In this document: one piece after another, positions 14,055 to 52,518 of the stretch
How the letters are laid out: each line of letters opens with the position of its first letter
Position numbering within the stretch: the stretch's first letter is position 1
DNA from: an uncultured Anaeroplasmataceae bacterium
Lineage (GTDB): Bacteria; Bacillota_I; Bacilli_A; Acholeplasmatales; Anaeroplasmataceae
Direction: 5' to 3'
DNA: 64,000 bases
Assembly: GCA_947629825.1 (NCBI GenBank)
Contig: CANRFF010000003.1
Coordinates: 1-64,000, forward strand
Made by a program: the position numbers and the translations under genes
The notes under the pieces: generated by a model
Seen by the model: only the letters and a program-made list of their open reading frames with translations
Told to the model about the DNA's origin: nothing
Database searches by the model: none

Positions 14055-14250
14055 CCGCCATAAGAAATGAAATTACCCCCACTTCTTGGACTGAAATAGG
14101 TTACAATGAATGGGGGGGGGGGTTGGTATTTGCTTCCTGTACTTATCGAACGCACCGCCAAAATAAAGGCATAAACAAGGCAAAGATGGTGGTCGCAAGT
14201 GCCACAAATTCGCCTTCAAAATGAGGGAAATTTACTTTGGGAGAAATGAA
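14055..14250 (+). repeat. Direct repeat copy B with an expanded G-run
   Basis: This is the second copy of the tRNA-anchored repeat, offset 2968 bases from copy A. It begins at the same CCGCCA. Where copy A has five Gs, copy B has eleven (14112-14122). The sequence upstream (GAGTGGCACTCGTG) is not the tRNA body, so only the tRNA 3' tail was duplicated. It is followed at 14292 by the promoter of the restriction-modification operon, just as copy A is followed by a promoter and operon. Confidence 0.85.
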
Positions 14251-14345: not shown

Positions 14346-15413
14346 ATGTTAAGTTATATTTCAGCAAAAGAAGCCGCCGAAAAGTGGAATATTTCACAAC
14401 GGCGTGTCGCAATTCTTTGTGGTGAAAACCGAATTGACGGAGCTATGATGGTCGGTAATATGTGGATTATCCCAAGCGATGCCGAAAAGCCCCTAGATAA
14501 AAGAATCATGCGATATGAAAAGGAACACAAAATTATGTTGAAGCCCTTTGTCAAGTGGGTTGGCGGGAAAGGGCAACTTATCGATGAACTTGAAAAGATG
14601 CTACCCTCAAACAACGGAAAGGTTCTGACGAGGTATTGTGAACCGATGGTTGGTGGCGGCGCACTTCTTTTCAATGTTTTGTCGAAGTATGATTTTAAAG
14701 AACTTTATATCAGCGACATTAATCCTGAACTTATCAATGCTTACAATACAATTAAAAAAGATGTTGTGGAACTGATTGCACGCCTTCAAGAGATGCAAAT
14801 GGTCTTTTTGCCAATGGGCGAGGACGGCAGAAAGTTTTACTACTATTCCATCCGCGATAAATTCAATTCCGTGATATTGACAGACGAAACGTCGGTTGAA
14901 AAAGCAGCCTATTTTATCTTTCTCAACAAGACTTGCTTCAACGGACTGTATCGGGTAAACCGCAAAGGACAATTCAATGTCCCTATGGGCGCATACAAAA
15001 ATCCGACGATTTGTGACGAGGAAAACTTGCTTAATATAAGCAAAGTTTTGCAAAACGTTACTATCGTTTGCGGCGACTATTCATTATCGAAAAAGTTCAT
15101 CGACAAGAATACTTTTGTATATTTGGATCCGCCTTATCGCCCCATTTCCGAAACGTCCGCTTTCACTTCATACAATGCCGATGCATTTGATGACAGCGAA
15201 CAAATACGACTTTCTGAATTTATTGGCGAAATAAACGCAACCGGCGCAAAAATTGTGTTAAGCAACTCCGATCCGAAGAACGTAAATCCCGAGGATACTT
15301 TCTTTGATGACTTGTACAAGTCGTATAGCATCAAGCGCGTATCCGCTTGCCGTATGATAAACAGCAATGCCGACAATCGTGGCAAGATCAATGAACTTAT
15401 AATCAGCAACTAA
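14346..15413 (+). CDS. Dam/DpnM-type adenine methyltransferase with N-terminal helix-turn-helix
   Basis: A 355-residue protein. Residues ~58-355 are a D12-class N6-adenine methyltransferase of the Dam/DpnM type: PFVKWVGGKGQL binds the methyl donor, FLNKTCFNGLYRVN follows, and DPPY (residues 261-264) is the catalytic motif. These enzymes methylate GATC. Residues 1-57 are a small DNA-binding domain of the excisionase/MerR-like kind (SAKEAAEKWNISQRRV) that is not part of Dam; it may autoregulate the operon or help target DNA. A GAGGTG ribosome binding site precedes the ATG. With the DpnII-like nuclease at 16527 it forms a GATC restriction-modification pair. Confidence 0.93.
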   Translation: MLSYISAKEAAEKWNISQRRVAILCGENRIDGAMMVGNMWIIPSDAEKPLDKRIMRYEKEHKIMLKPFVKWVGGKGQLIDELEKMLPSNNGKVLTRYCEPMVGGGALLFNVLSKYDFKELYISDINPELINAYNTIKKDVVELIARLQEMQMVFLPMGEDGRKFYYYSIRDKFNSVILTDETSVEKAAYFIFLNKTCFNGLYRVNRKGQFNVPMGAYKNPTICDEENLLNISKVLQNVTIVCGDYSLSKKFIDKNTFVYLDPPYRPISETSAFTSYNADAFDDSEQIRLSEFIGEINATGAKIVLSNSDPKNVNPEDTFFDDLYKSYSIKRVSACRMINSNADNRGKINELIISN

Positions 15414-34575: not shown

Positions 34576-34614
34576 GTCCTTCGTATCGAATCTTCCGGTG
34601 CGGAGGACTTTTTT
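34576..34614 (+). terminator. Terminator after rpsR
   Basis: GTCCTTCG pairs with CGGAGGAC (one G-U), then six Ts. The loop is 17 bases. Confidence 0.75.
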
Positions 34615-34668: not shown

Positions 34669-34699
34669 TTGACATTTTGAATAGGGGGGGGGGTATAAT
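34669..34699 (+). promoter_or_regulatory. Poly-G promoter 1 (candidate phase-variable)
   Basis: TTGACA at 34669-34674 and TATAAT at 34694-34699 with a 19-base spacer that contains ten Gs (34684-34693) directly against the -10. Loss of two Gs would give the ideal 17-base spacing. It drives the lipoprotein gene at 34745. The text around it (GACATT, ACTTGAC, TATAATCGAA) is shared with poly-G promoter 2. Confidence 0.85.
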
Positions 34700-34744
34700 C
34701 GAACCAAACAGCAAAAAAAATGACAAAATCCGAGGAGTGAAAAA

Positions 34745-36901
34745 ATGAAAAAGTATTTATGGATATTTTGTTTGCCATTCGTTCTGATGTTTGGTTTATG
34801 GTTATGTAGTTGTTCTTCCAAAGGAGTCGAAGGTCCCAAAGGAGATAAAGGGGATAAAGGAGATCCGGGAGAAATCGGAGAAGATTTTTATACCGCCAAT
34901 CCGCAAGGATTGATGTTTTATTTAATGGACGACGACACTTATGGTGTGGGAGTCGGCGGAGCGGGGTATCTGTCTACCATTACCATTCCGGAAACGTATG
35001 CCGATAAAAAAGTAACGACGATTGTAGAACACGGATTCGAAAATTCTTCCGTGGAAACATTGAAACTTCCGAGCGGAATCCGTTCGATCGGCGAATATGC
35101 TTTTGCGAATTGTGCGAAGTTAAGTTCGGTTTATTGCGGCGAAACCGAATGGAATTTGATTTTGGGTGAAACCGAAGTTCTGACGTCTGTGGAGAATGTT
35201 TCTTTCGGAACATCGTGTTTTGCGAACACGGATCTGCCGAGTGTTTCTTTTGCCGACGGAGATGAAGGGTCCAACATCAAAATCATTGTCAAAAACAATA
35301 ACGATTTATTTGATGCCATCGAGTATTCATTTGCGTTGAATACGGAAACGGATATTGTTTCTTCCGGAACGATTGAAAATATCGACAAGTCTTCCGTTAC
35401 GTATGAAGTCGATGCGAAAACGTATGGAAAATTTAAAAATTCAACGGTAAAATTATACAAATCGGAAAAAGAAGTGGCTTCTTTTTCTCCGACATCGGCC
35501 TATGCAGTCGCAGAGGAATATAATTTTGCGGAATTGAACGCAAGTTATCCGGTATTGGTGTTTACTTTGAAGTTGAAAGAAATCACCAAAGAAGGAACCA
35601 TTCCGACTTTTGTCAATCTGGACCGATTCAAAACATACGATTGGGATCATCTGATGTACAACGTCGACCGGATTCCGACGGTTGACAGAACCACGGCAAT
35701 TGAGGGCGGATTCCACACAATCAAGCATAAAATGGCTGAATATATCAAAGAACTTTATGAATTGAATCCCGATTCCAAGTTCAATTTGTATTGTGTGGAT
35801 AATTATCCGGAATTTATTCTGAAAATGTTTGTTGCCAATCGGATTCCCGAAGAAAACTGGACGGCTACGTTGTTGTCCGACGGGGTAGGTACCGCAGGGT
35901 TTTATTTGAAAAATGGTTTCGGAACCGTGGATGAGCCGATGAATAAATATTATGAAATGGTCGAAGAGTGGAAAAGAGTCAAGGAATATGTTTATGAAAA
36001 CGGCTATTCCGACGACGATATATTCAAAAATTTCAAATACACTCAAGAAACGTATTCGGTTTTGGGATACTATTCTTATGTGATTACCAAATTGGAACCG
36101 AATGTCCGCTGGATTGTCAATCGTCTGCGGGAAACCGAGAATTTAAAAGAAATCAATGAAAAAGATCCGTGGCTTGCGACAGATATCAGAAATACGGCGA
36201 TTTCCGAAGCAACCAATACGCTTCTTGAAAACCTTTCGGATACGGAACAGGCAGATTTCAAGAGAATGTATAAATTCAGCGATGATATGTTCTCGGTTGC
36301 GAAAGAACAGGATAAGAAAATCATGATTATTCTGGGGACGTCGTGGGAAAACGAAGGACAGGCTTTCTATGACTATATCAAAATGACGATGGAATATTAC
36401 GGAGATGACTATATCTATTATTATAAAGGACATCCGGGATACCCGACAGCCAACTATACGGAACGTAAAGAAATGTTGGATCGCTTGAACGAAGGGGATT
36501 CACAGATTATCGAACTGGATAATTCCATTGCGGCGGAAATCATTCTGTTTTATGAACCGAGCGTTTATTTGTGCGGTTGGCCTACGACGACGTTTTTGTC
36601 CGTTCAGTCTCCGCAAATGGCTTGTTCGTTGTTTAATACCACTCTTTCGGCTCAACCGAGTGAGTATGGTTCACTGATGGATATTTATATTTCCAAAATC
36701 GCAGACGAAAGTTCTCAATATCAGGATACCGATATTTCATTGGATTCCGAAAAACATTATTATGTAATGGAATTTAATCCGGTACAACAGGCTACGAACG
36801 GTTACGACAAGCATGAATTGGCGATTTACTGCGTCGAAGACCAAACGATTACTTATTATAAAAATCAAGGCGGAAATACTTATACCACAACCGACAAATA
36901 A
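34745..36901 (+). CDS. Lipoprotein with collagen-like, LRR and GT80-sialyltransferase-like domains
   Basis: A 718-residue secreted lipoprotein. The signal ends at L-C-S-C with Cys23 the likely lipidated residue. Residues 27-47 are seven Gly-X-Y triplets (GPKGDKGDKGDPGEIG), then a BspA-type leucine-rich repeat (residues ~100-125, LKLPSGIRSIGEYAFANC). The C-terminal ~430 residues resemble GT80 sialyltransferases (Pasteurella PmST1, Photobacterium): the D/E-D-G motif as S378-D379-G380 with the catalytic-base Asp kept; IILGTSWENEG (compare FTGTTTWEG); YIYYYKGHPG with H563-P564 (compare KIYFKGHPRGG); and YLCGWPTTTFLSV. The first acidic residue of the motif is Ser here. Photobacterium enzymes are lipoproteins too. 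CMP-sialate genes are not in the window, so donor and activity are unproven. Expressed from a poly-G promoter; RBS GAGGAG. Confidence 0.75.
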   Translation: MKKYLWIFCLPFVLMFGLWLCSCSSKGVEGPKGDKGDKGDPGEIGEDFYTANPQGLMFYLMDDDTYGVGVGGAGYLSTITIPETYADKKVTTIVEHGFENSSVETLKLPSGIRSIGEYAFANCAKLSSVYCGETEWNLILGETEVLTSVENVSFGTSCFANTDLPSVSFADGDEGSNIKIIVKNNNDLFDAIEYSFALNTETDIVSSGTIENIDKSSVTYEVDAKTYGKFKNSTVKLYKSEKEVASFSPTSAYAVAEEYNFAELNASYPVLVFTLKLKEITKEGTIPTFVNLDRFKTYDWDHLMYNVDRIPTVDRTTAIEGGFHTIKHKMAEYIKELYELNPDSKFNLYCVDNYPEFILKMFVANRIPEENWTATLLSDGVGTAGFYLKNGFGTVDEPMNKYYEMVEEWKRVKEYVYENGYSDDDIFKNFKYTQETYSVLGYYSYVITKLEPNVRWIVNRLRETENLKEINEKDPWLATDIRNTAISEATNTLLENLSDTEQADFKRMYKFSDDMFSVAKEQDKKIMIILGTSWENEGQAFYDYIKMTMEYYGDDYIYYYKGHPGYPTANYTERKEMLDRLNEGDSQIIELDNSIAAEIILFYEPSVYLCGWPTTTFLSVQSPQMACSLFNTTLSAQPSEYGSLMDIYISKIADESSQYQDTDISLDSEKHYYVMEFNPVQQATNGYDKHELAIYCVEDQTITYYKNQGGNTYTTTDK

Positions 36902-37068: not shown

Positions 37069-37098
37069 TTGACTTTTTCACAGGGGGGGGGGTATAAT
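37069..37098 (+). promoter_or_regulatory. Poly-G promoter 2 (candidate phase-variable)
   Basis: TTGACT at 37069-37074 and TATAAT at 37093-37098 with an 18-base spacer holding ten Gs (37083-37092). Loss of one G gives 17. It lies 140 bases ahead of the CDP-sugar operon. Confidence 0.85.
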
Positions 37099-37145: not shown

Positions 37146-37174
37146 TTGTAAAAGAGTATAAAAATTGATATAAT
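37146..37174 (+). promoter_or_regulatory. Second, conventional promoter of the CDP-sugar operon
   Basis: TTGTAA, 17 bases, TATAAT, downstream of the poly-G promoter. It could give a fixed basal level while the poly-G promoter adds a switchable one. A small hairpin TTTCTC-TGAA-GAGAAA lies just before it. Confidence 0.65.
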
Positions 37175-37237: not shown

Positions 37238-38290
37238 ATGTTGAATTTATCGTTTTATAAAGGAAAAAAAGTATTGCTGACGGGACATACGGGTTTTAAA
37301 GGAACATGGTTGACGAAAATATTGGTTCAAAACGGAGCCATTGTACTGGGATATTCTTTGAATCCGCCGACGGAACCGAATCTTTTTACGTTATCCAAGG
37401 TGGAAAACTCCATTCGCTCCGTCATCGGTGATGTTCGGGATTATGAGCATTTGAAAAAAGTTTTCGATGAATTCCAACCGGAAATCGTGATGCATTTGGC
37501 AGCACAACCGTTGGTCAGGGATTCTTATCGGGAACCGAAATATACGTATGAAACCAATGTTTTGGGGACAGTCAATATTTTGGAATGCGTCAGACAGACA
37601 CCGTCGGTGAAAAGTTTTTTGAATGTGACGACCGATAAAGTTTATTTGAATGACGATATTCCGGATCATCCTTTTCGGGAAGATGAGGCACTGGACGGCT
37701 ACGACCCTTACAGCAATTCCAAATCTTGTAGCGAACTGGTAACGCACAGTTATAAAAAATCGTTTTTTGCGGATCGGGATTGCAGTATTTCCACGGCCAG
37801 AGCGGGAAATGTGATCGGCGGAGGAGATTTTGCGAAAGACAGAATCATTCCGGATTGTATTCGGTCGGTGGAAGCGGGACGGGAAATCATTGTTCGGAAT
37901 CCATTGTCCACCAGACCGTATCAACACGTGTTGGAACCGCTCTATATTTATTTGGATATTTGTCAAAAACAATATGAAAATAAACAATTCGAGGGATACT
38001 ATAATATCGGACCGGACGATTGCGATTGTGTAACGACGGGAGATTTGGTGGATCTTTTTTGCAAGGCGTGGGGAAATGTTCGTTGGAAAAATCAAAATGA
38101 CGGGGGTCCTCATGAAGCGGCTTTTTTGAAATTGGATAACTCCAAAATCAAAAAAGTATTCGGATGGAAGCCGAGATGGCACATTGAAAAGACGATGGAA
38201 CAAATCGTGGCGTTCACCAAGGTATATTTGAAAAACAAAGAAATGATCCCGGAAGAGATGGAAAGAGAAATCAAAGAATTTTTCAAATAA
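37238..38290 (+). CDS. rfbG: CDP-glucose 4,6-dehydratase
   Basis: A 350-residue extended short-chain dehydrogenase: the cofactor loop LLTGHTGFKGTWL, MHLAAQPLVRDSY, NVTTDKVY, the active-site YSNSK in GYDPYSNSKSCSE, and RAGNVIGGGDFAKDRIIPD, which are hallmarks of RfbG rather than RmlB. It turns CDP-glucose into CDP-4-keto-6-deoxyglucose. The partner cytidylyltransferase RfbF is not in the window. Leads a three-gene run (TPP enzyme and epimerase/reductase follow at short gaps). The ribosome binding site is weak (GCGAG). Confidence 0.9.
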   Translation: MLNLSFYKGKKVLLTGHTGFKGTWLTKILVQNGAIVLGYSLNPPTEPNLFTLSKVENSIRSVIGDVRDYEHLKKVFDEFQPEIVMHLAAQPLVRDSYREPKYTYETNVLGTVNILECVRQTPSVKSFLNVTTDKVYLNDDIPDHPFREDEALDGYDPYSNSKSCSELVTHSYKKSFFADRDCSISTARAGNVIGGGDFAKDRIIPDCIRSVEAGREIIVRNPLSTRPYQHVLEPLYIYLDICQKQYENKQFEGYYNIGPDDCDCVTTGDLVDLFCKAWGNVRWKNQNDGGPHEAAFLKLDNSKIKKVFGWKPRWHIEKTMEQIVAFTKVYLKNKEMIPEEMEREIKEFFK

Positions 38291-38313
38291 AAAAATAGAA
38301 GAGGAGAAAAGCA

Positions 38314-40149
38314 ATGAAAAAAAGAGTAGCGGATTATTTTGGCGAATATCTCGTCAAACAGGGAATTACGACAGACTTTACTTTGCCGGGTGGCGGAGCG
38401 ATGCATTTGGATGATGCGTTTGCCCATACCGACGGAATGACGTGTATTTTCGTTCAGCATGAGCAATCTGCGGCGATTGCGGCGGAATCTTTTGCGAGAC
38501 TTCACAATCAGATTCCGGTGGTTTGTGTTACGACGGGTCCCGGCGGAACCAATACATTGACGGGAGTCGTGGGAGCATGGTTGGATTCGATTCCGATGTT
38601 GATTATTTCCGGACAAGTTCGTTATGCGACGACCGCCAGAGCGGCAAAAGTCGGTGTTCGGGCGATGGGAGATCAGGAATTCGATATTACGAAAGTGGTA
38701 GCGCCGATGACCAAATATGCCGAAATGATTGCGGAGCCGAAAATGGCGATGTATCATTTGGAAAAAGCATTGTTCTTGGCGAAAAACGGCAGACCGGGTC
38801 CGTCTTGGGTCGATGTTCCTTTGGATGTTCAGAGTGCGATGATGGAAGAAAAAGATTTCATCCATTTCGATCCGGTCAAAGAAGGATATGTTCGGGAATA
38901 CGATGTCGATGAAGCGACGGTTCGCAAGGTTGTGGAATTGGTTTCCAAAGCCAAACGACCGGTGTTCAATGCCGGTAACGGAATTCGGATTGCCGACAGT
39001 CATTCGGAATTTTTGGAAGCGGTTCGCTTGTTGGATATTCCGGTAGTTACGGGATGGGACAGCATTGATTTGATTGCCGATGCCGATCCGCATTATGTCG
39101 GTCGTGCCGGAATTATGGGAGATCGTCCGGGAAATTGGGCGGTTCAAAACAGCGATTTGTTACTGTCTGTCGGATCTCGGTTGGGAGTTCGTCAAGTCGG
39201 ATACAATAAAGATACGTGGGCAAGAGAATCATTTGTCATAATGGTAGATATCGACGATGCCGAATTGAAGAAACCGTCGATTCATGTGGAAATGCCGATT
39301 TGTGCCGATGCGAAAAAATTTTTGCAGAAACTGAATGCCGTATTGAAAACCGAAAAAGTCGCACCGCACAACGATTGGAATCAGATTTGCCAGAAATGGA
39401 AGAAAGATTATCCTGTGGTTCAGCCGAAGCATTATGCGAAAGCGCCACTGGCCAATGTATATTGTTTTATTAAAGAATTGAGCCGAAGATTACCGGAAAA
39501 TAAAATTACGGTTGTGGGAAACGGATCTGCCTGTGTGGTCGGAAGTCATGGCTATGAGATCAAAAACGGACAACGTTTCATTATCAACAGCGGAGCGGCA
39601 AGTATGGGATATGACTTGCCTGCGGCCATCGGTGCGGCGTTTGCTTCCAAAGAAGAAATCATTTGCTTGTCGGGAGACGGTTCCATTCAGATGAATTTAC
39701 AGGAATTGCAAACGATTGTACATCATCATCTGCCGATTAAAATTTTCGTGATCAATAACGACGGATATCATTCCATGAGACAAACCGAAAGTAATTTGTT
39801 CCCGGAACATACGATGTTCGGAGTCGGGCCTCACGACAGTTATGATTTGTCGTTCCCGTCGATGAAAAAGATTGCGAAAGCCTACGGAATCCCTTATGTT
39901 GCGATTTCCAATAACGACGAAATGAAAAAATTGGATCGTATTTTGGCAACTCCGGGATATATGATGATTGAAATTTTTGTGGACAGAGAACAGAAATTCG
40001 AACCGAAATCCGCAACGAAGAAATACGAGGACGGAACGCTTGTTTCTCCTCCGCTGGAGGACTTGGCACCGTTTTTACCTCGGGAAGAATTACAGAAAAT
40101 TATGATTATTCCGCTATTGGAAGACAGTAATCCGTTATTGAAGGATTAA
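38314..40149 (+). CDS. Thiamine diphosphate-dependent enzyme (acetolactate synthase/YerE-like)
   Basis: A 611-residue enzyme of the IlvB fold: the catalytic Glu in VQHEQSAAIAAESFAR, TTGPGGTNTLTG, SGQVRYATTAR, and the TPP-binding CLSGDGSIQMNLQEL...VINNDGY. Acetolactate synthases have the same plan, but the neighbours point to sugar work. YerE in yersiniose biosynthesis is a TPP enzyme that adds a two-carbon unit from pyruvate to a CDP-4-keto sugar, and is commonly encoded beside RfbG. The CDP-3,6-dideoxy enzymes (E1/E3) of the yersiniose pathway are absent here, so the acceptor could be the 3-hydroxy sugar. A GAGGAG ribosome binding site supports the start. Confidence 0.82.
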   Translation: MKKRVADYFGEYLVKQGITTDFTLPGGGAMHLDDAFAHTDGMTCIFVQHEQSAAIAAESFARLHNQIPVVCVTTGPGGTNTLTGVVGAWLDSIPMLIISGQVRYATTARAAKVGVRAMGDQEFDITKVVAPMTKYAEMIAEPKMAMYHLEKALFLAKNGRPGPSWVDVPLDVQSAMMEEKDFIHFDPVKEGYVREYDVDEATVRKVVELVSKAKRPVFNAGNGIRIADSHSEFLEAVRLLDIPVVTGWDSIDLIADADPHYVGRAGIMGDRPGNWAVQNSDLLLSVGSRLGVRQVGYNKDTWARESFVIMVDIDDAELKKPSIHVEMPICADAKKFLQKLNAVLKTEKVAPHNDWNQICQKWKKDYPVVQPKHYAKAPLANVYCFIKELSRRLPENKITVVGNGSACVVGSHGYEIKNGQRFIINSGAASMGYDLPAAIGAAFASKEEIICLSGDGSIQMNLQELQTIVHHHLPIKIFVINNDGYHSMRQTESNLFPEHTMFGVGPHDSYDLSFPSMKKIAKAYGIPYVAISNNDEMKKLDRILATPGYMMIEIFVDREQKFEPKSATKKYEDGTLVSPPLEDLAPFLPREELQKIMIIPLLEDSNPLLKD

Positions 40150-40153
40150 ATTT

Positions 40154-41074
40154 ATGAAACTGAAAAATGTAGTGATTACAGGTCCGACGGGGGCTGTCGG
40201 AGTGGCGTTGATTCGGGAATTATTGAATCACGGAAGCACGGTGTATGCCGTTTGCCATAAGAATTCCAAACGAATCGGCAACATTCCTTCCTCCGAAAAA
40301 GTTCATATTGTGGAATGCAATCTGGATTCCATCGGGGATTTGGTTGATATGATTCCGCATTCGATCGATGCTTTTTATCATTTTGCATGGGACGGAACTT
40401 ACGGACAATCCAGAAACGACGCCGAAACGCAATGCCGGAATATCGTCGATTCGATGGAAGCCTGTCGGGTGGCCAAAGAATTGGGATGCAAAGTGTTTGT
40501 CGGGGCCGGTTCCCAAAGCGAATACGGACCGTCCGATCGGATGAAAGGCCCCAAAGACGTTTGTCTGCCGGATAATTTCTACGGGGCTGCCAAACTGGCG
40601 ACGTCACAAATGACGAGAGTCTATTGTAAGCAAAACGGAATTCGACACATCTGGTGTAGAATTTTCAGTCTGTTCGGTCCTTGTGACGGAGAATATACGA
40701 TGATTATGTCTTCGATTCGCAAAATGCTTCATAAAGAAGTATGCGATTTTACAAAGGGAGAACAAATTTGGGATTATATTTATTCGAAAGATGCGGCGAA
40801 AGCCTTTCGCTTGGTCGGACAGCGGGGAATTGACGGAAGCGTTTATTGTTTTGCGTCCGGTCAGACCCGCCGTTTGAAAGAGTATATCGAATCGATGCAT
40901 CAGATTGTGAATCCGGACTGTGAAATCCGGTTCGGTACGATTCCGTATTATGAACATCAGGCGATGAATCTGACGGCCGATATTTCGAATTTGAAAAAGG
41001 ATACCGGCTTCGAACCGTCTTATACGTTTGAAGAGGGTATCGTCGATTTATTGAAAGAATTAACGCAGAAATAA
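40154..41074 (+). CDS. NAD-dependent epimerase/reductase of the sugar operon
   Basis: A 306-residue extended short-chain dehydrogenase: the nucleotide loop VITGPTGAVG, FYHFAWDGTYG, FVGAGSQSEYGP, and the active YxxxK in NFYGAAK. It starts 4 bases after the TPP enzyme stop, so it is the same operon. It probably reduces or epimerises the product of the two previous enzymes (YerF has that role in yersiniose), but a plain epimerase role remains possible. No clear ribosome binding site ahead of the ATG (40154), consistent with coupling. Confidence 0.85.
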   Translation: MKLKNVVITGPTGAVGVALIRELLNHGSTVYAVCHKNSKRIGNIPSSEKVHIVECNLDSIGDLVDMIPHSIDAFYHFAWDGTYGQSRNDAETQCRNIVDSMEACRVAKELGCKVFVGAGSQSEYGPSDRMKGPKDVCLPDNFYGAAKLATSQMTRVYCKQNGIRHIWCRIFSLFGPCDGEYTMIMSSIRKMLHKEVCDFTKGEQIWDYIYSKDAAKAFRLVGQRGIDGSVYCFASGQTRRLKEYIESMHQIVNPDCEIRFGTIPYYEHQAMNLTADISNLKKDTGFEPSYTFEEGIVDLLKELTQK

Positions 41075-41130
41075 GGAAAAGTTTTTCCTTATTTTTGATT
41101 GTAAAAGGCGGTACAGAATGGAGGGACAAA

Positions 41131-43098
41131 ATGAAAAACTTGGTAAAAAACAAAATCTATATCATTCTACTCATATTAACTGTCGTTCTTTTTGTCGATA
41201 AAATTCTTAATGTGTTATCTGTTCGGGATTTTATTTTGGTAAATCCATCTTCCGTTTTATCTGTTACCGACGGATTTCAATGGAATTTATGGTATTTATT
41301 GTTGATGAAAATCTGCTCTTTGAATACAACTTTCGGAGCAATATTGTATGTGATTGTTGATGTATTGTGTATCGATTTTTCCGTCATTGCACTATTGTAT
41401 CTTGGAAAAGTCAAAAATTTGTCCGGAGAAAAGAAAACTCTTTATCAACTGATTGTGTTTTTGTTTTACGGATTTCATCTGTTTTTGGGTGTTCGTGAAA
41501 CATTGAGTCTGGATTTGTTTGTTGCGATATTTATCGGAATGTTTTTGCTTCGATTTTATCACACCGAGTCCAAAAAAGTCTTTTGGACGTTATGGGGCAT
41601 CAAACTGGTACTCATCGTTACGACGTTTCATTTTTTATATCTTTCGTTTCTCATATTCGATTTCATTGAGGTATGGAAACGGAAAAAGAAACCGATTTTG
41701 TGGATTCCGGAGTTGTTGTGTTTCGGCGTCGGACTTTCTCTGCTGATTTTGTCGGGATTCAAATTACAAATCGATTGGAATCGTTGGATCGGATATTGTT
41801 ATTTATCTTTGATTCCGAACGTGCCGATTTTGAAAAATTTCGAATTGTTGACATATATTGTGTTTTTTGTTGCGTATGTCTGGTTGATTGTTATTTGGGG
41901 ATGTTCGCTGAACGAAAGAAGCGAAGAGTTCTGGATGGGAATTTGCAGTATGATTTTATGTTTTTTGATGGTACTGTTCATTCCGATGGATTCCTGGTTT
42001 TACAAAAGCGAAACGATTTATGTCTATTGTTCTTTGGCGTATGTGGGGATTTTTGCACTGACGGCGGTCAGCGGGACGTATCATTCTTTGGGCAATACTT
42101 ATTTTAATCTTCGTTTTTTCCGATATGGAATATGTGCGTTGTTGGGAATTTTCTGTTTTGTTAATGTCTGGAACGAAGAAAAACATTCTTTCGCCGATCA
42201 GGTTTATTATGCCGTATCGTATGATATCGATTCTTTAAAAGAAATCAACGGAAAAAATATTTTCGGATATTCCAACTACGAATTGAGAAATCAGCCCGAA
42301 TTGTATGCCGAATATGCCGAAAAGTATCGGGTGGTTTATGATGTGGACCGAAACTATCAGACGGAACATACGGCTTCTTGGAAGCGGGGATTTTTAAGAT
42401 ATGACGGAATGGCTTGTGTTGCCGAAGGATATTCCGTTATCGAATATTACGGAGCCACCCAACTTCTTTATGCGGATTTTGCATTTGATAAAAAAATGAT
42501 CGGAAACTATTATTTGGTGGTGAAAATCAATAACGAAGTGGTGGAATCTTCTTTGATTCAAAGCGAAAGTTTCAAAAGGACATACGACTTATTCGAACAT
42601 TATTGGGGAAGAACGCTTTTTGTTTCTTTGATTATCGAAAATGAGCAGCATCAGATTTATGACGGAGAATATAAAATCAATTATCTGTATATGTATCAAC
42701 ACGAAAATCCGAGTCTGACGGATTTGAGACACGGTACCATTTTGAATGGAATCTGGGCAGAGTCCTGGAAAGAATTCTATACGCACAACGAAGGATCGTT
42801 TTTGATGAATTGCGCAGCAGATGAGATCTGGATCGAATATCATATTTTGTCTCATATCGATATCAATAATTTTCATCATCGACTTCGGGTTTTTGTCGGC
42901 AATCAAACGGTATATGATGCCGTTCTCGACCCTTTGAAAACCAATATTCATTTCAAATTTCAAAGTAAGAAACCATTGAACAGAGTCTATGAAATCCGAT
43001 TGGTCATCGATGACGGCGGTTTGAATCTGGATGCTCCGTGGGGGATTGAAAATATTTATGTAAAGGAGAATTACAATGTTGAAAACACTGAAAAATAA
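41131..43098 (+). CDS. Multi-spanning membrane protein with C-terminal beta-rich domain
   Basis: I do not recognise a named family. The 655-residue protein has about ten to twelve membrane segments in its first ~360 residues and a C-terminal ~290-residue outside domain rich in beta strands (GYSVIEYYGATQLLYADFAFD, MNCAADEIWIEYHILSH). That plan resembles GT-C glycosyltransferases with an extracytoplasmic domain, and the next genes share it. The start at 41131 has GGAGGG; an ATG at 41095 does not. It overlaps the next gene by 23 bases. It follows the CDP-sugar operon after 56 bases with no terminator seen, so it is likely co-transcribed from the poly-G promoter 2 region. Confidence 0.75.
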   Translation: MKNLVKNKIYIILLILTVVLFVDKILNVLSVRDFILVNPSSVLSVTDGFQWNLWYLLLMKICSLNTTFGAILYVIVDVLCIDFSVIALLYLGKVKNLSGEKKTLYQLIVFLFYGFHLFLGVRETLSLDLFVAIFIGMFLLRFYHTESKKVFWTLWGIKLVLIVTTFHFLYLSFLIFDFIEVWKRKKKPILWIPELLCFGVGLSLLILSGFKLQIDWNRWIGYCYLSLIPNVPILKNFELLTYIVFFVAYVWLIVIWGCSLNERSEEFWMGICSMILCFLMVLFIPMDSWFYKSETIYVYCSLAYVGIFALTAVSGTYHSLGNTYFNLRFFRYGICALLGIFCFVNVWNEEKHSFADQVYYAVSYDIDSLKEINGKNIFGYSNYELRNQPELYAEYAEKYRVVYDVDRNYQTEHTASWKRGFLRYDGMACVAEGYSVIEYYGATQLLYADFAFDKKMIGNYYLVVKINNEVVESSLIQSESFKRTYDLFEHYWGRTLFVSLIIENEQHQIYDGEYKINYLYMYQHENPSLTDLRHGTILNGIWAESWKEFYTHNEGSFLMNCAADEIWIEYHILSHIDINNFHHRLRVFVGNQTVYDAVLDPLKTNIHFKFQSKKPLNRVYEIRLVIDDGGLNLDAPWGIENIYVKENYNVENTEK

Positions 43099-45538
43099 AT
43101 CCGTTTATGTTGTAATATTTCTTTTTACGTTTTTATTGGGATTGGTGTTATTACGTCACTGTCTCATCGGAGAGTATACCTTTTTATCCAAACTGCAGTT
43201 ATCCGATTTGGTCAGAGCCAATCTGCCGACATATACGATGATTTATGATGAATTTGCAACGGGATTCAATATCTGGCAGTGGGAAATGGGAATCGGTACC
43301 AGTATATTTACCCACGCAGACGTCTTGTTTGATCCGTTCACATATATTTGTTTTTTAGGCGGAAGAGCCAATATCGCCGAAATGATGGGGTGGAGTCTGC
43401 TGATTAAGTTGTGTGCGGAAGCCGTTACCATGGGCGTGTTCCTGAAACATTTCAAACTTGGGGATTTTTCGGTTTTTCTCGGCGGAATTTTGTATGCGTT
43501 TTGCGGATATTCGTTGATTATGGGAAGTAATTTGGCTTTAGGAACGTCTTTGGTTTATTTTCCTTTGGTATTGCTTGGGGTCGAAAAGATGCTTACGGAA
43601 AATAAAAAAGGCGGTCTGTTGTTTGCCTTGTTTTTGGTAGCGATTTATTATTATTACTATTTCTTTATTATCGGAATTTTGTCTTTGGTGTATCTGATTG
43701 CGAGATTGTGGATGATGAAGGCGTCGCCGAAACAATGGAGAAATGCCGTTTTTTCATTGGCGATTTTGGGAATGATTTCCGGTTTATTGAGTGCGTTTAC
43801 CATTTTACCGCAGGCTCTTCTGGTTTTCGGCGGAACCCGGGTCAAGAGCAAAGATGTTCCTTTTGATGTCAATTTGTTTTTGCCGAATCTGGAAGTTTTG
43901 ACCACTTCTTTGTCCCGGATCTTTGCGAATGATATTTTGGGATCGAAAGTCAATGCACAGTATTACGGATACCATAACGACTATTTTCAATTGACTTTCT
44001 TTGTTTCGTGTACGGCGGTGATTTTTATAGTCCAATACGTTCTTTATCACAAAGAACAACGGAAAAAAGTATTCGGAATTGCGATTGCTTCTTTGATTGG
44101 AATTTCTTTCGGGCTTGTGGCCTATTTATTCAATGCCTTTTCCACGATCAATTACCGATGGGCGTTTATTTACAATTTCCTTTTGGTTTTCGGAATGGCG
44201 TTGGGAGTGGATTCCGTTTTGAAAAACGGCGGATTTCATACCAAAAGATTGATTGCGTCGATTGTCGTTTCTTTGTTTGTGATGGGGTATTCCGTTTTAT
44301 CCAGAACGCAGACGACGGATATTTTTAAAGGACATTTAAGTAGTAACAGCGAAGTTTTTTCGGTTGTGATTTACATTTATCTGGCGTTGATTGTGCTGGA
44401 TATGATCTATAAACTCATCAAAGGAAAAATCGGGATAAAAGGATTCCGGATTTCTTTTTCCATTGTACTTCTGGCTCTTTTGAGTCTGGAAATCATGGCG
44501 AATTACAGAACGTGGCTTTCTCCCGACAATTTATCGAAATACGGGCAAGAACCGCAGTTGAATTATGAAGACGGAAGTATGGATGTGATCGCAAACATTC
44601 AAAAAAAGGATCAGAGTTTTTATCGGATCAACAAAACGTTCGATTCGGTGGTTGATGGTGTTACCATTCCTTCTTGTAACGATGCGATGGTACAGAAATA
44701 TTACGGACTGAAGTGTTACAATAGTATCAACAATGCCAACTACATCTATTTTTTACAGTCGGCAGGAGTATATGTTTGTCTTCCGTATAGTGTTTCTCCC
44801 TATAAAGAACAGAATAAAACGCCGTTTGATATTACGGGACAGGATCTGAACTTTATTTGCGGAGTTTACGAACGATATGATCTGATGTGTTATTTGGGCG
44901 TGAAATATTTAATCAGCGATCGCAATATGGATTCGGATCTTCCGCCGTATTTTGAATTGAAAGAAAACAGTCAGGGCTATTTTGTTTATTACAATCATGC
45001 TTATTGTCCGCTGGCATTCAGTAATTCCGGAATCATTTCCTATTCCGAATATTTGAAACTGAATGAAGAATTACGAGGGATTGCCTTATTGAAATATACT
45101 GTTCTTTCCGATGAATTGATGGCGGAAAAACATATCACGTCCGCACAGATTGATGTTGATGTTTCGGAGGATTTGGAAAATCTGGTTTTACAGAAACAAC
45201 AGAATTATAGTGAGATTTCGTTTGCGGAAAATCACATAGAATTCGAAATCGATATGGCCGAAGACGGATATTTGTCGTTGGGAATGCCGTATGATTCGAA
45301 TTGGCAGATTGTGGTTGACGGTAAAAAAGTTCAAACGGAAAAAATCAATTGCGGTCTGTTGGGGGCAGTTACCACCGGCGGACATCATCGGGTGGAAGTT
45401 CGTTATGTCGGAAAAGACTTCATTGCCGGAACGGCGATTTCCGTTGTTACCTTGATCGGCTTGGTCTCTTTCGGTATCTGGTGGCAGTGCAGAAGAAGAA
45501 AAGAATCGGAAGGGGGCGTTCAAGATGGAAATGAGTGA
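43076..45538 (+). CDS. YfhO-family membrane protein
   Basis: An 820-residue protein of the YfhO family (PF09586): DEFATGFNIWQWEMGIGTS, HADVLFDPFTYICF, GFCGY-like AFCGYSLIMGSN, then about twelve membrane segments, an outside domain and a final membrane segment near residues 790-810. YfhO in Firmicutes is linked to glycosylation of lipoteichoic acid. The family is a GT-C-type glycosyltransferase or flippase-like protein. The ATG lies inside the previous gene (23-base overlap), AAAGGAG ribosome binding site. It overlaps the acyltransferase by 14 bases. Confidence 0.87.
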   Translation: MLKTLKNKSVYVVIFLFTFLLGLVLLRHCLIGEYTFLSKLQLSDLVRANLPTYTMIYDEFATGFNIWQWEMGIGTSIFTHADVLFDPFTYICFLGGRANIAEMMGWSLLIKLCAEAVTMGVFLKHFKLGDFSVFLGGILYAFCGYSLIMGSNLALGTSLVYFPLVLLGVEKMLTENKKGGLLFALFLVAIYYYYYFFIIGILSLVYLIARLWMMKASPKQWRNAVFSLAILGMISGLLSAFTILPQALLVFGGTRVKSKDVPFDVNLFLPNLEVLTTSLSRIFANDILGSKVNAQYYGYHNDYFQLTFFVSCTAVIFIVQYVLYHKEQRKKVFGIAIASLIGISFGLVAYLFNAFSTINYRWAFIYNFLLVFGMALGVDSVLKNGGFHTKRLIASIVVSLFVMGYSVLSRTQTTDIFKGHLSSNSEVFSVVIYIYLALIVLDMIYKLIKGKIGIKGFRISFSIVLLALLSLEIMANYRTWLSPDNLSKYGQEPQLNYEDGSMDVIANIQKKDQSFYRINKTFDSVVDGVTIPSCNDAMVQKYYGLKCYNSINNANYIYFLQSAGVYVCLPYSVSPYKEQNKTPFDITGQDLNFICGVYERYDLMCYLGVKYLISDRNMDSDLPPYFELKENSQGYFVYYNHAYCPLAFSNSGIISYSEYLKLNEELRGIALLKYTVLSDELMAEKHITSAQIDVDVSEDLENLVLQKQQNYSEISFAENHIEFEIDMAEDGYLSLGMPYDSNWQIVVDGKKVQTEKINCGLLGAVTTGGHHRVEVRYVGKDFIAGTAISVVTLIGLVSFGIWWQCRRRKESEGGVQDGNE

Positions 45539-46661
45539 AAATCAAAGCGCCGGAATTTTAACGATTGCCCCGAAAAAACAACGAAATTCAACCATTGAAT
45601 TGCTTCGGATTATCTGTATGCTGATTATTGTTGCCCACCACTTTGTCGTTCACGGAGGGGCGATGGAAATAGAAAGCGGAGCCAATCGTATTTTGGCGTA
45701 TCTGTTGATTCCGGGCGGTAAAATTGCATTTTGTTGTTTTATCGCTATCAGTACGTGGTTTTTGTGTGAAAGCCAATTCAAAACCAAAAGATTTTTAAAG
45801 ATATATCTGGAAACGTTGTTTTATTCGGTTTTGTTGACGGTATTGGCCGTTGCCTTGGGGAAAAACATTGACTTTAAAACGGCAATTTCGGTTTGGTTTG
45901 TGATTGCGGGAAACTCTCATGGTTTTGCGGCAGCGTATCTGTTGTTTTACCTGTTCCTTCCGTTTTTGCATAAAATAACCAAAAACATCACCAAAAAGCA
46001 ATTGATTGTTTTGACGGTCTTGTTGTTTTATGCTCAGATTCTTTCGCAAAACTTGGGAATATTTTTTAACTATCGGCAAAGTTTTGCTTCGGAACTGTTA
46101 TTGTTCGTTTTGTTTTATTTCACTTCGCTGACTCTGAAAAGATATCCGCCGAATTTTATTTCTCGGAAGTGGTTGCTCGGAATCATTTTTGTCATCTCCT
46201 GGATTTTGTGCTATGCCCTTTATATTACCAGCAGTAAGAACAACAACAGTACCATTCAATATTTTCTGGATATCTTCCGGGACGAATCGAGTATTTTAAA
46301 TATTGCGGCGGGATATAGTTTATTCTTGTTTTTCAAAGATTTTCAACTCAAACCGAATAAACTCGTCAACCGCATCGCAAGTTGTACGTTTGGCGTTTTG
46401 CTGATTCATGACCACAATATTTTAAGAAACGTTTTCTGGAGTAAAATTTTTCCGGTGAGGGTATGTTTTGCTTTTCCGTTTTATCAATTCGCACTTTGTC
46501 TGATTGGGTTTGTGCTGGCGATTTTTATCGTCTGTGCGCTTTTCGATTATTTCAGACAAGTGGCTTTGGAAAAACCGCTTTTCAATCTTGAAAAATTAAA
46601 TGTTTTTTGCGATCGCATCGATCGTTGGCTCAATGAAGAGAAAGGAAGCAATTGTCAATGA
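45525..46661 (+). CDS. Acyltransferase 3 family membrane protein
   Basis: A 378-residue protein with about ten membrane segments and the acyltransferase 3 start: STIELLRIICMLIIVAHHFVVHGG, whose histidine pair is catalytic. These O-acetylate or otherwise acylate surface glycans. The gene overlaps the YfhO gene before it and the next by ATGA, so its product probably modifies the same glycan that the neighbours build. Confidence 0.88.
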   Translation: MEMSENQSAGILTIAPKKQRNSTIELLRIICMLIIVAHHFVVHGGAMEIESGANRILAYLLIPGGKIAFCCFIAISTWFLCESQFKTKRFLKIYLETLFYSVLLTVLAVALGKNIDFKTAISVWFVIAGNSHGFAAAYLLFYLFLPFLHKITKNITKKQLIVLTVLLFYAQILSQNLGIFFNYRQSFASELLLFVLFYFTSLTLKRYPPNFISRKWLLGIIFVISWILCYALYITSSKNNNSTIQYFLDIFRDESSILNIAAGYSLFLFFKDFQLKPNKLVNRIASCTFGVLLIHDHNILRNVFWSKIFPVRVCFAFPFYQFALCLIGFVLAIFIVCALFDYFRQVALEKPLFNLEKLNVFCDRIDRWLNEEKGSNCQ

Positions 46662-48442
46662 ACAGCAAATCGGAACGAATCTTAAAAACAGCCATTGCTT
46701 TTTTTGTTCTGGTATTATTTTCTTTTGTTGTGAATCGTTTCTTCCGAATTGATTCTTTTGTCGGAGACGATTTGGTTGAATTGAACGATTTCAGAACACT
46801 TTCGTTTGTCGAATTTGTAGGGCGACTTCCTCGGTTCCGGCCATTCAGCAATTTGTTTGTTTATCTGGAGTTATGGATTTGTCGCAATCATATGATCGGT
46901 GTTCAGTTTTATAATATTTTTGCGTTTGCTTTGCTGGGGTTTGTATTTTACCTTGTTTTATATGCTATGACCGATAAATATTTATTATCGTTGTTTTTGG
47001 CGGTTTTAACGGTGACGTCCCGACTTTCCTGGTACAACTCCACACAAATTCTGGGAAGAATGGAAGACATCTGTATCATTTTGGTTTTGTTGATTGTTTA
47101 TGTGCTTTTTCGGTTTTCAAAAAAGCATCACAACGGATTCATTGCGTGGGTATGTCTGTTGTATGCGTTGCTTTTGCTTTCCCACGAGCGGTATTTTATT
47201 ATGGGAATCCCCCTCGTTTTGTTTTTCTTGATTCGGGGAAAGAAAAACGAAAAAATTTACGGAACGTTCGGTCCGCTGGTTGTCTTTGCTTTATATTATT
47301 TTTTAAAAATTGGAATTCTGAAAATTCCATTTGCGATGGATACCGGTGGAACCGATCCGGTATCGATTGATTTTTTCAAAATGATATTGAACGCCTTGAT
47401 CGGTTTGGGAAATATCTTGCAACTTCCGCTGGCACCGGATTATCTGGTGGGGCTTCCGCTTTCGTCAATGGCGTGGCCGCTACAAATCTTTACGTATCTT
47501 GTTTTCGGCGGAATGACATTGCTTTTTCTGTTCTGTTGTGTGAAAATCGTGGTTTTGTTGGTTCATAAAAAATATCAGGAGGCGTTTTCTTTGCCGTTCT
47601 TTCTTTTGGTTATGATTGCATTTTTTCTCGGATCCGTATCGGTTGCCAAAAGAATCGAAATGCGCTTTTTATATTCTTCATTCGTATTGTTGTTGCTTTT
47701 TTTCGGTGTTTCCCTTTCTTCTTGGAACATCACACCGATGAAAACGGTCGTAAAGAAAGGTGCGGTGGCAGTGTTTTCTTTGGTACTGGTTTTTCATTTT
47801 GTGATGATTGCGAATGCCAAACCGTTTTACTATATCGTGCAAGATAATTCGTGGGGAAACGTTTATTATCGGGAAATCTATCGGAAAAACGCAGAAGAAT
47901 TGAAAAACAAAAAATTGATTTGCATTTGGGACGAAGCCGAACGGACAAGAACCAATCTGGATCTTTATTTGAAACAATTCGATTTGCCGTACGGATTTGA
48001 AATTTATAATGATTCAGAAGAGTTTGATTTGCTTTCTTTTTTGAATGAACATGCGGAAAATCAAATCATTGTACGGAATCATAACGGAACCATTCAGACG
48101 ATTTCTCCCCGGAATACGAAATTGAATTTGTCAAACGTCTGGTTGGAAGGCGAAGAAAATGAATTCGTCGGGTACAGTGAAACGGGAGAAATTACATTGG
48201 AGTTTCGTATTCCGAGCGACGCTTTTGCGAATATGAAATATCATATCTGTATCAATGATGAAGAAGTACCTCAAAAGGAAAACTTCGAAAGCAATCAAAA
48301 CTATCAATATCAAATTTCATCGATTGAAAAAAATCGGTATTTCAAACTGACGATTCGCTGTGAACAACCATATTGTCCGGCGGATCACGGGCAAGCGGAT
48401 ATTCGACAGTTGGCAATGTATGTTGTGTCTTTGGAAAGTTGA
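46658..48442 (+). CDS. Multi-spanning membrane protein, GT-C-like, beta-rich tail
   Basis: Family not recognised. The 594-residue protein has ~12 membrane segments over residues 1-395 (an early acidic pair SFVGDDLVELNDF, as in GT-C enzymes) and a C-terminal outside domain of about 200 residues that ends in a beta-sandwich-like part (NMKYHICINDEEVPQ...FKLTIRCEQPY). ATGA overlap with the acyltransferase; AAAGGAAG ribosome binding site. ATG 46652 is an alternative two codons earlier. Confidence 0.75.
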   Translation: MNSKSERILKTAIAFFVLVLFSFVVNRFFRIDSFVGDDLVELNDFRTLSFVEFVGRLPRFRPFSNLFVYLELWICRNHMIGVQFYNIFAFALLGFVFYLVLYAMTDKYLLSLFLAVLTVTSRLSWYNSTQILGRMEDICIILVLLIVYVLFRFSKKHHNGFIAWVCLLYALLLLSHERYFIMGIPLVLFFLIRGKKNEKIYGTFGPLVVFALYYFLKIGILKIPFAMDTGGTDPVSIDFFKMILNALIGLGNILQLPLAPDYLVGLPLSSMAWPLQIFTYLVFGGMTLLFLFCCVKIVVLLVHKKYQEAFSLPFFLLVMIAFFLGSVSVAKRIEMRFLYSSFVLLLLFFGVSLSSWNITPMKTVVKKGAVAVFSLVLVFHFVMIANAKPFYYIVQDNSWGNVYYREIYRKNAEELKNKKLICIWDEAERTRTNLDLYLKQFDLPYGFEIYNDSEEFDLLSFLNEHAENQIIVRNHNGTIQTISPRNTKLNLSNVWLEGEENEFVGYSETGEITLEFRIPSDAFANMKYHICINDEEVPQKENFESNQNYQYQISSIEKNRYFKLTIRCEQPYCPADHGQADIRQLAMYVVSLES

Positions 48443-48488
48443 TGAATTTCTCGGAAATGGTTCGAAAAAGGTTCAAAAAACCGAAAGT

Positions 48489-48517
48489 TTGATAATTTTG
48501 GGAAAACATGTTATAAT
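48489..48517 (+). promoter_or_regulatory. Promoter of the membrane-protein/GT87 pair
   Basis: TTGATA, 17 bases, TATAAT, 24 bases before the ATG at 48541. No G-run here. Confidence 0.75.
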
Positions 48518-48540
48518 GACTCAAAATCAGAGGTGAAGCC

Positions 48541-50136
48541 ATGAAAACATTTTTGCGCACAAACAGATATCAACTGTTGTTTATTTTCTTTTTGCTGGCG
48601 TTTTTCATTTTGGGTGTTACATTAAAAGTGTTCCAGCAAACAGATGAATATTATGAACTGGCGTTTTATTCGGAAAAACTTTTGTATTTGTCTCATGGGG
48701 ATTGGAAACAGTTTTTTTTCACTTCTGTATTTTCTTATGAAAACAGTTTATTTTATAACCTGTTGTTGATGATCTTTCGCTCGCACTTACCATCGTTTAT
48801 CAATGTCTTCGGTATTCTGGTGGATATTTTATTGTTTTTGACGCTTTCTCTTTTTCCGATATTCAAAAAGAATAAGACGATTTGGTTTCTGGTCATTTAT
48901 TTTATCGGAATTTATGATCTGGCATTGAATGACTTGTATGCCTTTTTCATTGAAACGAAATTAACGATTTTAATGTATTCGCTATTGTATTTGTTTTATC
49001 GGAAAAACAGCAAATTTACGTTGGCTTACGAAATATTTTTGACCATATTTTTCTTTTCTGTTTTTTTGGTTTTTGTATTTGCGTATCATTTGATTTTTTC
49101 CAAAGAAAGAAAACAATATATTCTCTTCGGATCTTTATTGGGACTTTATTTGCTGGCCTTTGTTTTTTGGATTCATCCGACGTTTCAAATGAATGTCGAT
49201 TGGATCAAAACTTGTTTTGTGCCGGTGTTTGACTATCATCCGATTGGACTTCCGTCTTTACTCTACTGGCACTTATTCAATCTGGTATTTTTCTTGGTTT
49301 TCATTTTATCGCTGGTTTTTATCTTTTGTTATCATCCGAAAAAATATTCTTTGGGTTTTGTCATCTTTTTTATCGCCCTGATCGGATATGCTTCTACGAC
49401 CAATGCCCGTCCGGAGACGGCGGTGTTATTGAAACATTATTTTCTGGCTTTCTTTTTGATGATGATGTATCTGACGGAAGAACAATATCTTCAAACGGAA
49501 AAAATGAATTTATTTAACGATCGGAAATTGCATTTTTCTCTGATGCGCTTGTTTTTCCCTTTCGTTTGTTGCCTCTTTGTTTTGGGCTTTTCTTCCGTTT
49601 CTGTTCAATCGGAAAGTCCGGATTCCTTTATGTATAAAATAAAATATGACAGTGAATATAATGTGGATACCCACCGTGTGGAACACAATCCTTTTGGACT
49701 GGAATTCGGCGACTATAAGCAAAAATTGGAATCGTTTGGAATTTCTTTGGATTATTGTCTGGAAGAACATATGGAATACGGAAGTTTTAAAAACGAAGAC
49801 ATTTTTGTATATGGCTTTGGAAAAGCAGAAGATTCCAACGGAAGCAGATGGACGGAAAATGACAGTGCGGTGAATATGTTCGGTCGAAGAGGAGACTCCT
49901 TGTTGGTTTCTCTCTATATGCCTTTGGATCAAGCACCGTTCGAATTTAAAATTCTGGTAGATAATTGCGAAGTTTATCAGGGGATTACCAAAGACGGCAG
50001 TCAGAATATCATTGTCCCATTGGATATTACCGACGGGAATCATATCATCAAATTCGAATGTCTCGATATCAAAGAATCGTCTTACTGTCTATATGTAACC
50101 AACATTGTCTTGGCAAATCCGGCATTTTTAGGGTAA
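48541..50136 (+). CDS. Multi-spanning membrane protein with beta-rich tail
   Basis: Family not recognised. The 531-residue protein has about ten membrane segments through residue ~360 and a ~160-residue outside tail that looks beta-rich (SLLVSLYMPLDQAPFEFKIL...NHIIKFECLDIKESSY). DEYYELAFYSEKL after the first segment resembles the first-loop acidic motif of GT-C enzymes. AGAGGTG ribosome binding site. Thirteen bases separate it from the GT87 gene. Confidence 0.75.
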   Translation: MKTFLRTNRYQLLFIFFLLAFFILGVTLKVFQQTDEYYELAFYSEKLLYLSHGDWKQFFFTSVFSYENSLFYNLLLMIFRSHLPSFINVFGILVDILLFLTLSLFPIFKKNKTIWFLVIYFIGIYDLALNDLYAFFIETKLTILMYSLLYLFYRKNSKFTLAYEIFLTIFFFSVFLVFVFAYHLIFSKERKQYILFGSLLGLYLLAFVFWIHPTFQMNVDWIKTCFVPVFDYHPIGLPSLLYWHLFNLVFFLVFILSLVFIFCYHPKKYSLGFVIFFIALIGYASTTNARPETAVLLKHYFLAFFLMMMYLTEEQYLQTEKMNLFNDRKLHFSLMRLFFPFVCCLFVLGFSSVSVQSESPDSFMYKIKYDSEYNVDTHRVEHNPFGLEFGDYKQKLESFGISLDYCLEEHMEYGSFKNEDIFVYGFGKAEDSNGSRWTENDSAVNMFGRRGDSLLVSLYMPLDQAPFEFKILVDNCEVYQGITKDGSQNIIVPLDITDGNHIIKFECLDIKESSYCLYVTNIVLANPAFLG

Positions 50137-50149
50137 AGAGGTGGAAAAA

Positions 50150-51349
50150 ATGAAAAAGAAATCACTTTATATTTATTGCGGATTATTGATTTTTTCCAGT
50201 ATCCTCTTTTTGATTACAATCAACACAATCAGTAAAAATTTTTATGATGCGTTTTTGGTTGCTTCCAGCGGTGGAGTCAGCGGGGACGATCGGTTTATGG
50301 ATTTTTTCAATTCGATCCGTGATGCCCGGGACGGAAGAGTTTATGACCAAAGAGGAGTGATTTATCCGGCATTGATCAATTGTTTTTTCTGGGGAGTTTC
50401 AGTCTGTCTTCCGTTTTTGGACGAAGGTTGGGGAGTTCCCGAAATGCATGCTTCGGCGGCAAGCCATATTGCGTATATTGCTTTTATTGCGCTTTGTGTC
50501 CTGTTTTATTGGATTATTTTAAGTAAGGCTTTTCCTCAACAGAAAAAAATGAAACTTTTACTGTTTTCGGCGACGTTCCTTTCGATGCCGATGTTATGGG
50601 CACTGGAAAGAGGGAATGTATTGATTGCCTCTGTTCTCTGTGTGATTTCTTTTATTCTTTTAAAAGATCACGAGAATAAAAAGATCAGAGAATTGGGATT
50701 TGTTTTATTGGCGGTTGCGACAGCGATCAAAATCTATCCGGCACTTTTCGTTTTATTGTTGTTGTTTGAAAAACGATACAAAGAATTGATCCGGACAGCG
50801 ATCTACATCTTCGTTCTTTTGATTTTACCGTTTGTTTTTTACGACGGATATACGGGATTGGCTTATGTGGCGAAAAGCATTTTCAGATTTGTGGATTTCC
50901 ATAATATCAAAGAAAGTCAGGCGTATGCCACCAGTTTGGCGGAATATTTGAAAAGATTTCAGATTACTCTTCCGTCGGCGGCAATTCTTTTAACGTATGT
51001 TTTTTATGTGATTTTATTGATTTTCAGTAAAAAAACCTATGCAAAATGTTTGATGATCACCTTAATTATTTTGAATATGTCCGGAAGTCAGATCATTTAT
51101 AATTCATTATATCTGTTGATTCCGATTATGGCGCTTTTCAAGGAAAAAGAATTGAACATTTTCGATTTGCTGATTTTTATCGTTTTGGGTTTTACGCAAT
51201 TTTTAAATGCCATTCCGCTTTCTTTTTTGAAAACCGATTACTTATTATGGAATAACTCGATATTCTATCTGATTGTCGCATTGTCTTTTTTGGTTGGTGT
51301 GAACATCGTGGTGGAACGGTGTCGAAGAAAACCACTCGCTCAGTCCTGA
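50150..51349 (+). CDS. GT87-family membrane glycosyltransferase
   Basis: A 399-residue polytopic protein matching the GT87/DUF2029 family: DFFNSIRDARDGRVYDQRGVIYP, LWALERGNVLIASVLCVISF, VATAIKIYPALFVLLLL. These GT-C enzymes use polyprenyl-phosphate sugars to add mannose-like residues outside the cell. The start 50150 is chosen because AGAGGTGG precedes it; a GTG at 50141 lies inside that ribosome binding site. Confidence 0.85.
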   Translation: MKKKSLYIYCGLLIFSSILFLITINTISKNFYDAFLVASSGGVSGDDRFMDFFNSIRDARDGRVYDQRGVIYPALINCFFWGVSVCLPFLDEGWGVPEMHASAASHIAYIAFIALCVLFYWIILSKAFPQQKKMKLLLFSATFLSMPMLWALERGNVLIASVLCVISFILLKDHENKKIRELGFVLLAVATAIKIYPALFVLLLLFEKRYKELIRTAIYIFVLLILPFVFYDGYTGLAYVAKSIFRFVDFHNIKESQAYATSLAEYLKRFQITLPSAAILLTYVFYVILLIFSKKTYAKCLMITLIILNMSGSQIIYNSLYLLIPIMALFKEKELNIFDLLIFIVLGFTQFLNAIPLSFLKTDYLLWNNSIFYLIVALSFLVGVNIVVERCRRKPLAQS

Positions 51350-52492: not shown

Positions 52493-52518
52493 TTGACATA
52501 GGGGGGGGGTGTTATAAT
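52493..52518 (+). promoter_or_regulatory. Poly-G promoter 3 (candidate phase-variable)
   Basis: TTGACA at 52493-52498 and TATAAT at 52513-52518, with only 14 bases between, of which nine are Gs (52501-52509). Three more Gs would make 17. In this sequence state the promoter would be expected to be weak or off. Confidence 0.8.

Follow-up and report, generated by a model that had tools for sequence, protein, structure and literature searches.

Does a run of ten Gs inside the promoter of a lipoprotein gene of an uncultured Anaeroplasmataceae bacterium act as a switch that raises and lowers transcription of the gene behind it? The locus lies in a stretch of 64,000 nucleotides that was analyzed as a whole (the window, to which coordinates without a contig label refer). 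The initial annotation had described ten Gs between TTGACA and TATAAT and a 19-base spacer, and direct reading of positions 34669 to 34699 confirmed this description. The elements of the locus are given below; the -35 hexamer, the nine bases that follow it, the poly-G tract, and the ribosome-binding site were read from the sequence.

34576 to 34608, plus strand: hairpin resembling an intrinsic terminator, 13 pairs and a T-run (tail TTTTTTCTTT), at the end of the upstream rpsF-ssb-rpsR unit
34669 to 34674, plus strand: -35 hexamer TTGACA, full consensus
34675 to 34683, plus strand: TTTTGAATA, the 9 bases between the -35 hexamer and the G-run
34684 to 34693, plus strand: poly-G tract G10 (GGGGGGGGGG), adjoining the -10 hexamer
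34694 to 34699, plus strand: -10 hexamer TATAAT, full consensus
34732 to 34737, plus strand: ribosome-binding site GAGGAG
34745 to 36901, plus strand: gene for a 718-aa lipoprotein with lipobox LCSC, collagen-like Gly-X-Y, BspA-type LRR, and a C-terminal GT80-like domain with KGHP

The two hexamers match the consensus at 12 of 12 positions, and the homopolymer lies wholly inside the interval between them. Since the strong terminator-like hairpin at 34576 to 34608 ends the preceding ribosomal-protein unit, the lipoprotein gene, an isolated transcription unit, has no evident promoter other than the poly-G one. The window holds 12 overlapping matches to GGGGGGGG, against 0.86 expected, and none of 100 shuffles reached 12.

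The same layout occurs twice more within the window, in front of a sugar-nucleotide/glycan operon and of a gene for a PMT_2 membrane protein.

37069 to 37098, plus strand: second poly-G promoter, TTGACT, 8 nt, G10, TATAAT, spacer 18
37146 to 37174, plus strand: possible further promoter, of ordinary type, for the operon behind the second poly-G promoter (TTGTAA-17-TATAAT, the -10 hexamer preceded by TG), by consensus match only
37238 to 51349, plus strand: co-directional glycan gene cluster
52493 to 52518, plus strand: third poly-G promoter, TTGACA, TA G9 TGT, TATAAT, spacer only 14, TG before the -10 hexamer
52546 to 54543, plus strand: gene for a 665-aa PMT_2-type membrane glycosyltransferase, downstream of the third poly-G promoter

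The cluster at 37238 encodes an NDP-sugar dehydratase, a TPP enzyme, an epimerase, YfhO, an acyltransferase, a GT87 protein, and unassigned membrane proteins; its operon may own a second, G-free promoter, which counts against poly-G control there. In the whole genome (1,416,372 bases in 12 contigs), seven runs of at least eight Gs have TTGACW at promoter distance upstream, and six of the seven sit before surface-protein or glycan genes: a giant BspA-LRR membrane-anchored protein (C1:199575), an exported InlB-repeat protein (C3:124724), a BspA-LRR lipoprotein (C5:37746), and the window lipoprotein, glycan cluster, and PMT_2 protein. The seventh (C2:8777), with a spacer of 21, is followed by a 49-aa open reading frame and then by a gene without an export signal, and on account of its spacer we did not count it as a clear case. 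Nor did we count C4:77715 and C4:87341, where a -10-like hexamer adjoins the run and the -35 element is weak. Runs of at least eight Gs in mnmA, in the coding sequence of an exported protein, and at the 5' end of an ABC ATPase open reading frame were set aside as not being promoter tracts, as were the G-runs at window position 14112 and at C5:35711, which lack promoter-like hexamers. Several of these runs have features of their own. At 13959 to 14122, runs of G7 and G11 with no promoter hexamers around them lie about 220 bases upstream of a gene for a D12-class adenine DNA methyltransferase (14346 to 15410). At G000:C2:184638, the coding sequence for an exported protein of 690 aa closes with a G9 run, a possible translational switch of the C terminus of that protein. 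At G000:C4:77682-77724, a G10 run adjoins a TATAAT, and this hexamer overlaps with the TTGACA of another promoter, of ordinary type; genes for a small membrane protein and for a peptidase of the C92 type follow.

The product of the lipoprotein gene had been taken for a secreted candidate glycosyltransferase. Secretion was borne out by the lipoprotein signal LWLCSC read from the sequence of the 718-aa protein, which also contains a short collagen-like Gly-X-Y stretch and one BspA-type LRR stretch (PF13306, E 9e-10). The GT80-like designation held in part: the window protein, searched alone against Pfam, has no PF11477 (GT80) match up to an E value of 10, and its C-terminal domain (residues 298 to 718) alone has no Pfam match above threshold, whereas a four-sequence profile matches structures of the PM0188 sialyltransferase (GT80) at E 9e-8 and homologs match PF11477 at 6e-6. 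At the level of profiles, then, labeling the putative enzyme domain GT80-like, of the PM0188-like sialyltransferase type, is justified. Of the HP motif and the acidic DG motif expected in PM0188-type enzymes, KGHP at residues 561 to 564 is invariant, as is DG at 379 to 380, but in the window protein the residue before DG is S; an AlphaFold2 model of the domain made from two sequences had a pLDDT of 40, too low for use. Within the genus, orthologs of the window lipoprotein matched in the LRR part only, with no ortholog of the enzyme domain; homologs of that domain are located in other families, and a relative in one Clostridia assembly (L103) stands under its own poly-G promoter. In congeners (G006:C11, G004:C8, and G003:C3), BspA-type LRR matches fall within open frames some 16,000 aa long.

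The promoter layout recurs well outside this genome. With the pattern TTGAC-N-G6+-TATAAT used for the family and class searches, matches were found in 16 of 55 family genomes and three of seven genera, whereas the same pattern read backwards and its poly-C counterpart were each found in 0 of the 55; these two controls, together with the shuffles, place the TTGACA-G10-TATAAT layout well beyond chance. In a class-wide sample, the motif was present in 22 of 395 genomes (15 of 192 genera) and the reversed pattern in 0 of 395. A scan of bacteria and archaea, taking one genome per species, returned at least 117 stretches with the motif, and the matches listed came mostly from uncultured gut Bacilli and Clostridia, with others from Saccharibacteria, Spirochaetes, Helicobacter, Streptobacillus, Streptococcus, and Blautia. 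Cultured isolates, such as Streptobacillus notomytis, Blautia luti, and a Streptococcus sp., carry it too. Only two viral contigs matched, and the notion of a phage feature was rejected on that account.

The genes that follow these promoters tend to be of the exported type. Exported status was called by a simple hydrophobicity rule, with the same gene calling and the same rule for all sets, and by this measure the first gene was exported or N-terminally membrane anchored in 22 of 28 cases in the family and in 83 of 104 cases in the wider set, so that 79 to 80% of poly-G promoter targets across relatives bear an exported signature. The corresponding figures were 4 of 24 for first genes behind ordinary promoters (TTGACA-N-TATAAT) in the genome that the window comes from and 150 of 534 for the other genes at poly-G loci (Fisher p 1.7e-5 and 6e-23 for enrichment against the comparison sets). 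Of ten representative targets searched against Pfam, several had no match; the matches to others included MBG/Ig-like domains, choline-binding repeats, and an LPXTG anchor.

The number of Gs in the family promoters forms a hump at 8 to 10 (three tracts of six, one of seven, 14 of eight, ten of nine, six of ten, and four of 11). Since chance runs would fall steadily in number from six upward, the hump suggests a maintained tract of a size known to slip. Spacers of the family poly-G promoters have a mode of 18 and a mean of 17.8, compared with a mode of 17 and a mean of 16.5 for ordinary promoters of the window genome (Mann-Whitney p 5e-5); most poly-G spacers measure 17 to 19, and one window locus has 14. 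The proposal that eight Gs would represent the ON state, which took 17 as the optimal spacer, is not upheld by these values: with a family mode of 18 against 17 for ordinary promoters, the ON length cannot be read off the sequence. Either many of the assembled genomes captured a weak state or poly-G promoters favor a longer spacer. A deficit of spacers of 17 was noticed post hoc (13 observed and 24.8 expected, p 0.002; p about 0.009 after dereplication by arm); it may reflect lineages that differ in preferred spacer, and we kept it out of the evidence.

Comparison of 83 pairs of homologous poly-G promoters, a set that cannot show tract loss because the loci were found by carrying a tract, gave a different number of Gs in 29 pairs and the same number in 54. 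The most telling pair comes from two species of one genus (L017 and L157), which are 97.5% identical over 3,031 bases with four gap openings and have G8 and G6 tracts, with spacers of 18 and 16. The two orthologs also differ near positions 1400 to 1500 of L017, where in one of them the ribosome-binding site and start region are duplicated as a short tandem repeat. Other close orthologs have equal tracts (G10 in both at 98% identity; G8 in three species at 88 to 93%), and the tracts may therefore change slowly; differences between species are in any case a mark of mutability and not of switching within a population. Another genome, G418, has a row of exported paralogs with near-identical promoters, each with G9 except for one with G8. 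These paralogs (beginning MKNLKMFAI) lie about 2 kb apart on contigs C6 (L215 and L216) and C41 (L217), and the row looks like a variable surface-protein array. Tandem arrays of this kind were found only in G418 and a few other relatives and are absent from the window genome; the search of the genus around G418 allowed too narrow a gap, and long-armed promoters were missed.

We consider it likely that the G10 tract is a contingency tract of the porA type and that the lipoprotein gene undergoes transcriptional phase variation through slippage in the spacer. The promoter is of the sigma-70 type and has the tract in its spacer; slipped-strand mispairing at replication would add or remove Gs, and the change would alter the distance between the -35 and -10 hexamers and with it the rate of transcription of the lipoprotein gene. 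As one member of a genome-wide set of seven tracts with TTGACW upstream, it would belong to a group of poly-G promoters that probably let cells raise or lower surface genes at random, and in related gut bacteria with the same layout, cells would come to carry differing combinations of surface proteins and glycans. The initial annotation had also proposed phase variation, and its proposal is favored by the recurrence of the tract, the enrichment of exported genes, the hump of lengths, and the near-identical promoters with unequal tracts, apart from the assignment of the ON length.

The main rival is a slow polymorphism, in which the G number would drift between lineages and set expression for each lineage, with no switching at a useful rate. 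Several orthologous promoters keep their G number at 88 to 98% identity, as such drift would predict, and homopolymer variation in Cutibacterium (Propionibacterium) acnes followed the clades, which suggested that it had built up slowly (PMC4746626). We nevertheless regard it as unlikely, given that poly-G tracts elsewhere among bacteria are variable at these lengths of 8 to 11 (PMC7864442), that the run is held at 8 to 10 with no decay, that the targets are the class of gene expected for phase variation, and that the tracts of one 97.5%-identical pair are two Gs apart. A fixed architecture, with G-rich DNA beside the -10 hexamer setting promoter strength or binding a regulator and variation in length being incidental, would fit both the near-constant contact of the G-run with TATAAT in one set of hits and the longer mean spacer, as if tuned to another geometry; it is rendered improbable by the fact that a binding or structural element needs no uninterrupted homopolymer varying from 6 to 11 and by the lack of conservation, between loci, of the arms upstream of the run. 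Most of the genomes compared are short-read metagenome assemblies, which could raise the suspicion of a sequencing or assembly artefact (two-color poly-G), or else of a chance G-run, but the tract falls precisely between -35 and -10, the reversed and poly-C controls are zero, orthologs occur in separate assemblies, and cultured isolates carry the motif, and we give this explanation almost no credence.

Beyond the single locus, we lean slightly toward the view that poly-G-spacer promoters constitute a widespread, multilocus system of surface-gene phase variation in uncultured gut Bacillota, with some Saccharibacteria and Spirochaetes, including paralog arrays whose members have slipping promoters of their own. 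If the tracts slip, a simple DNA pattern would reveal phase-variable surface genes in many lineages not yet cultivable, their states could be read from existing metagenomes through counts of G length, and they would point to varied surface proteins and glycans, presumably under immune or phage pressure.

In Mycoplasma hyorhinis, every promoter of the vlp lipoprotein family contains a variable poly-A homopolymer; the promoters described here likewise serve multigene surface sets with one homopolymer per promoter, and the G418 paralog array resembles the vlp layout, whereas the homopolymer is poly-G instead of poly-A and the window genome has no tandem paralog array. In Neisseria porA, the -10 and -35 elements flank a poly-G tract, and the gain or loss of a single G alters transcription (PMC3899988, PMC7864442). 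As in Neisseria meningitidis porA, the run here occupies the spacer of a sigma-70-type promoter with a surface-protein gene downstream; unlike porA, the layout is repeated at several loci of a genome and belongs to gut Bacillota, of the Anaeroplasmataceae type and others, and we count the spacer of 14 at window locus 52493, beside others mostly of 17 to 19, as a further difference. HPT_37 of C. acnes, a poly-C tract five or seven bases long between -10 and -35 whose length was linked to a difference in expression between strains (PMC4746626), shares with our set a G/C homopolymer at this position in a Gram-positive organism but is a single poly-C tract with clade-following variation. Poly-G tracts of at least eight upstream of surface-protein genes also occur at the tpr loci of Treponema pallidum, where length varies within isolates (PMC7864442). 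The tracts analyzed here are similar in length and in the genes they precede, although the tprL tract overlaps the -10 region and ours lie in the spacer. Spacer slippage is thus a mechanism of a kind already known, and its breadth in these lineages looks new, a limited literature search having found no paper that describes promoters with a poly-G spacer as common among gut Bacillota. Phase variation in gut commensals is discussed mostly through the invertible promoters of the Bacteroidales, to which the proposed poly-G system would be a slippage-based counterpart.
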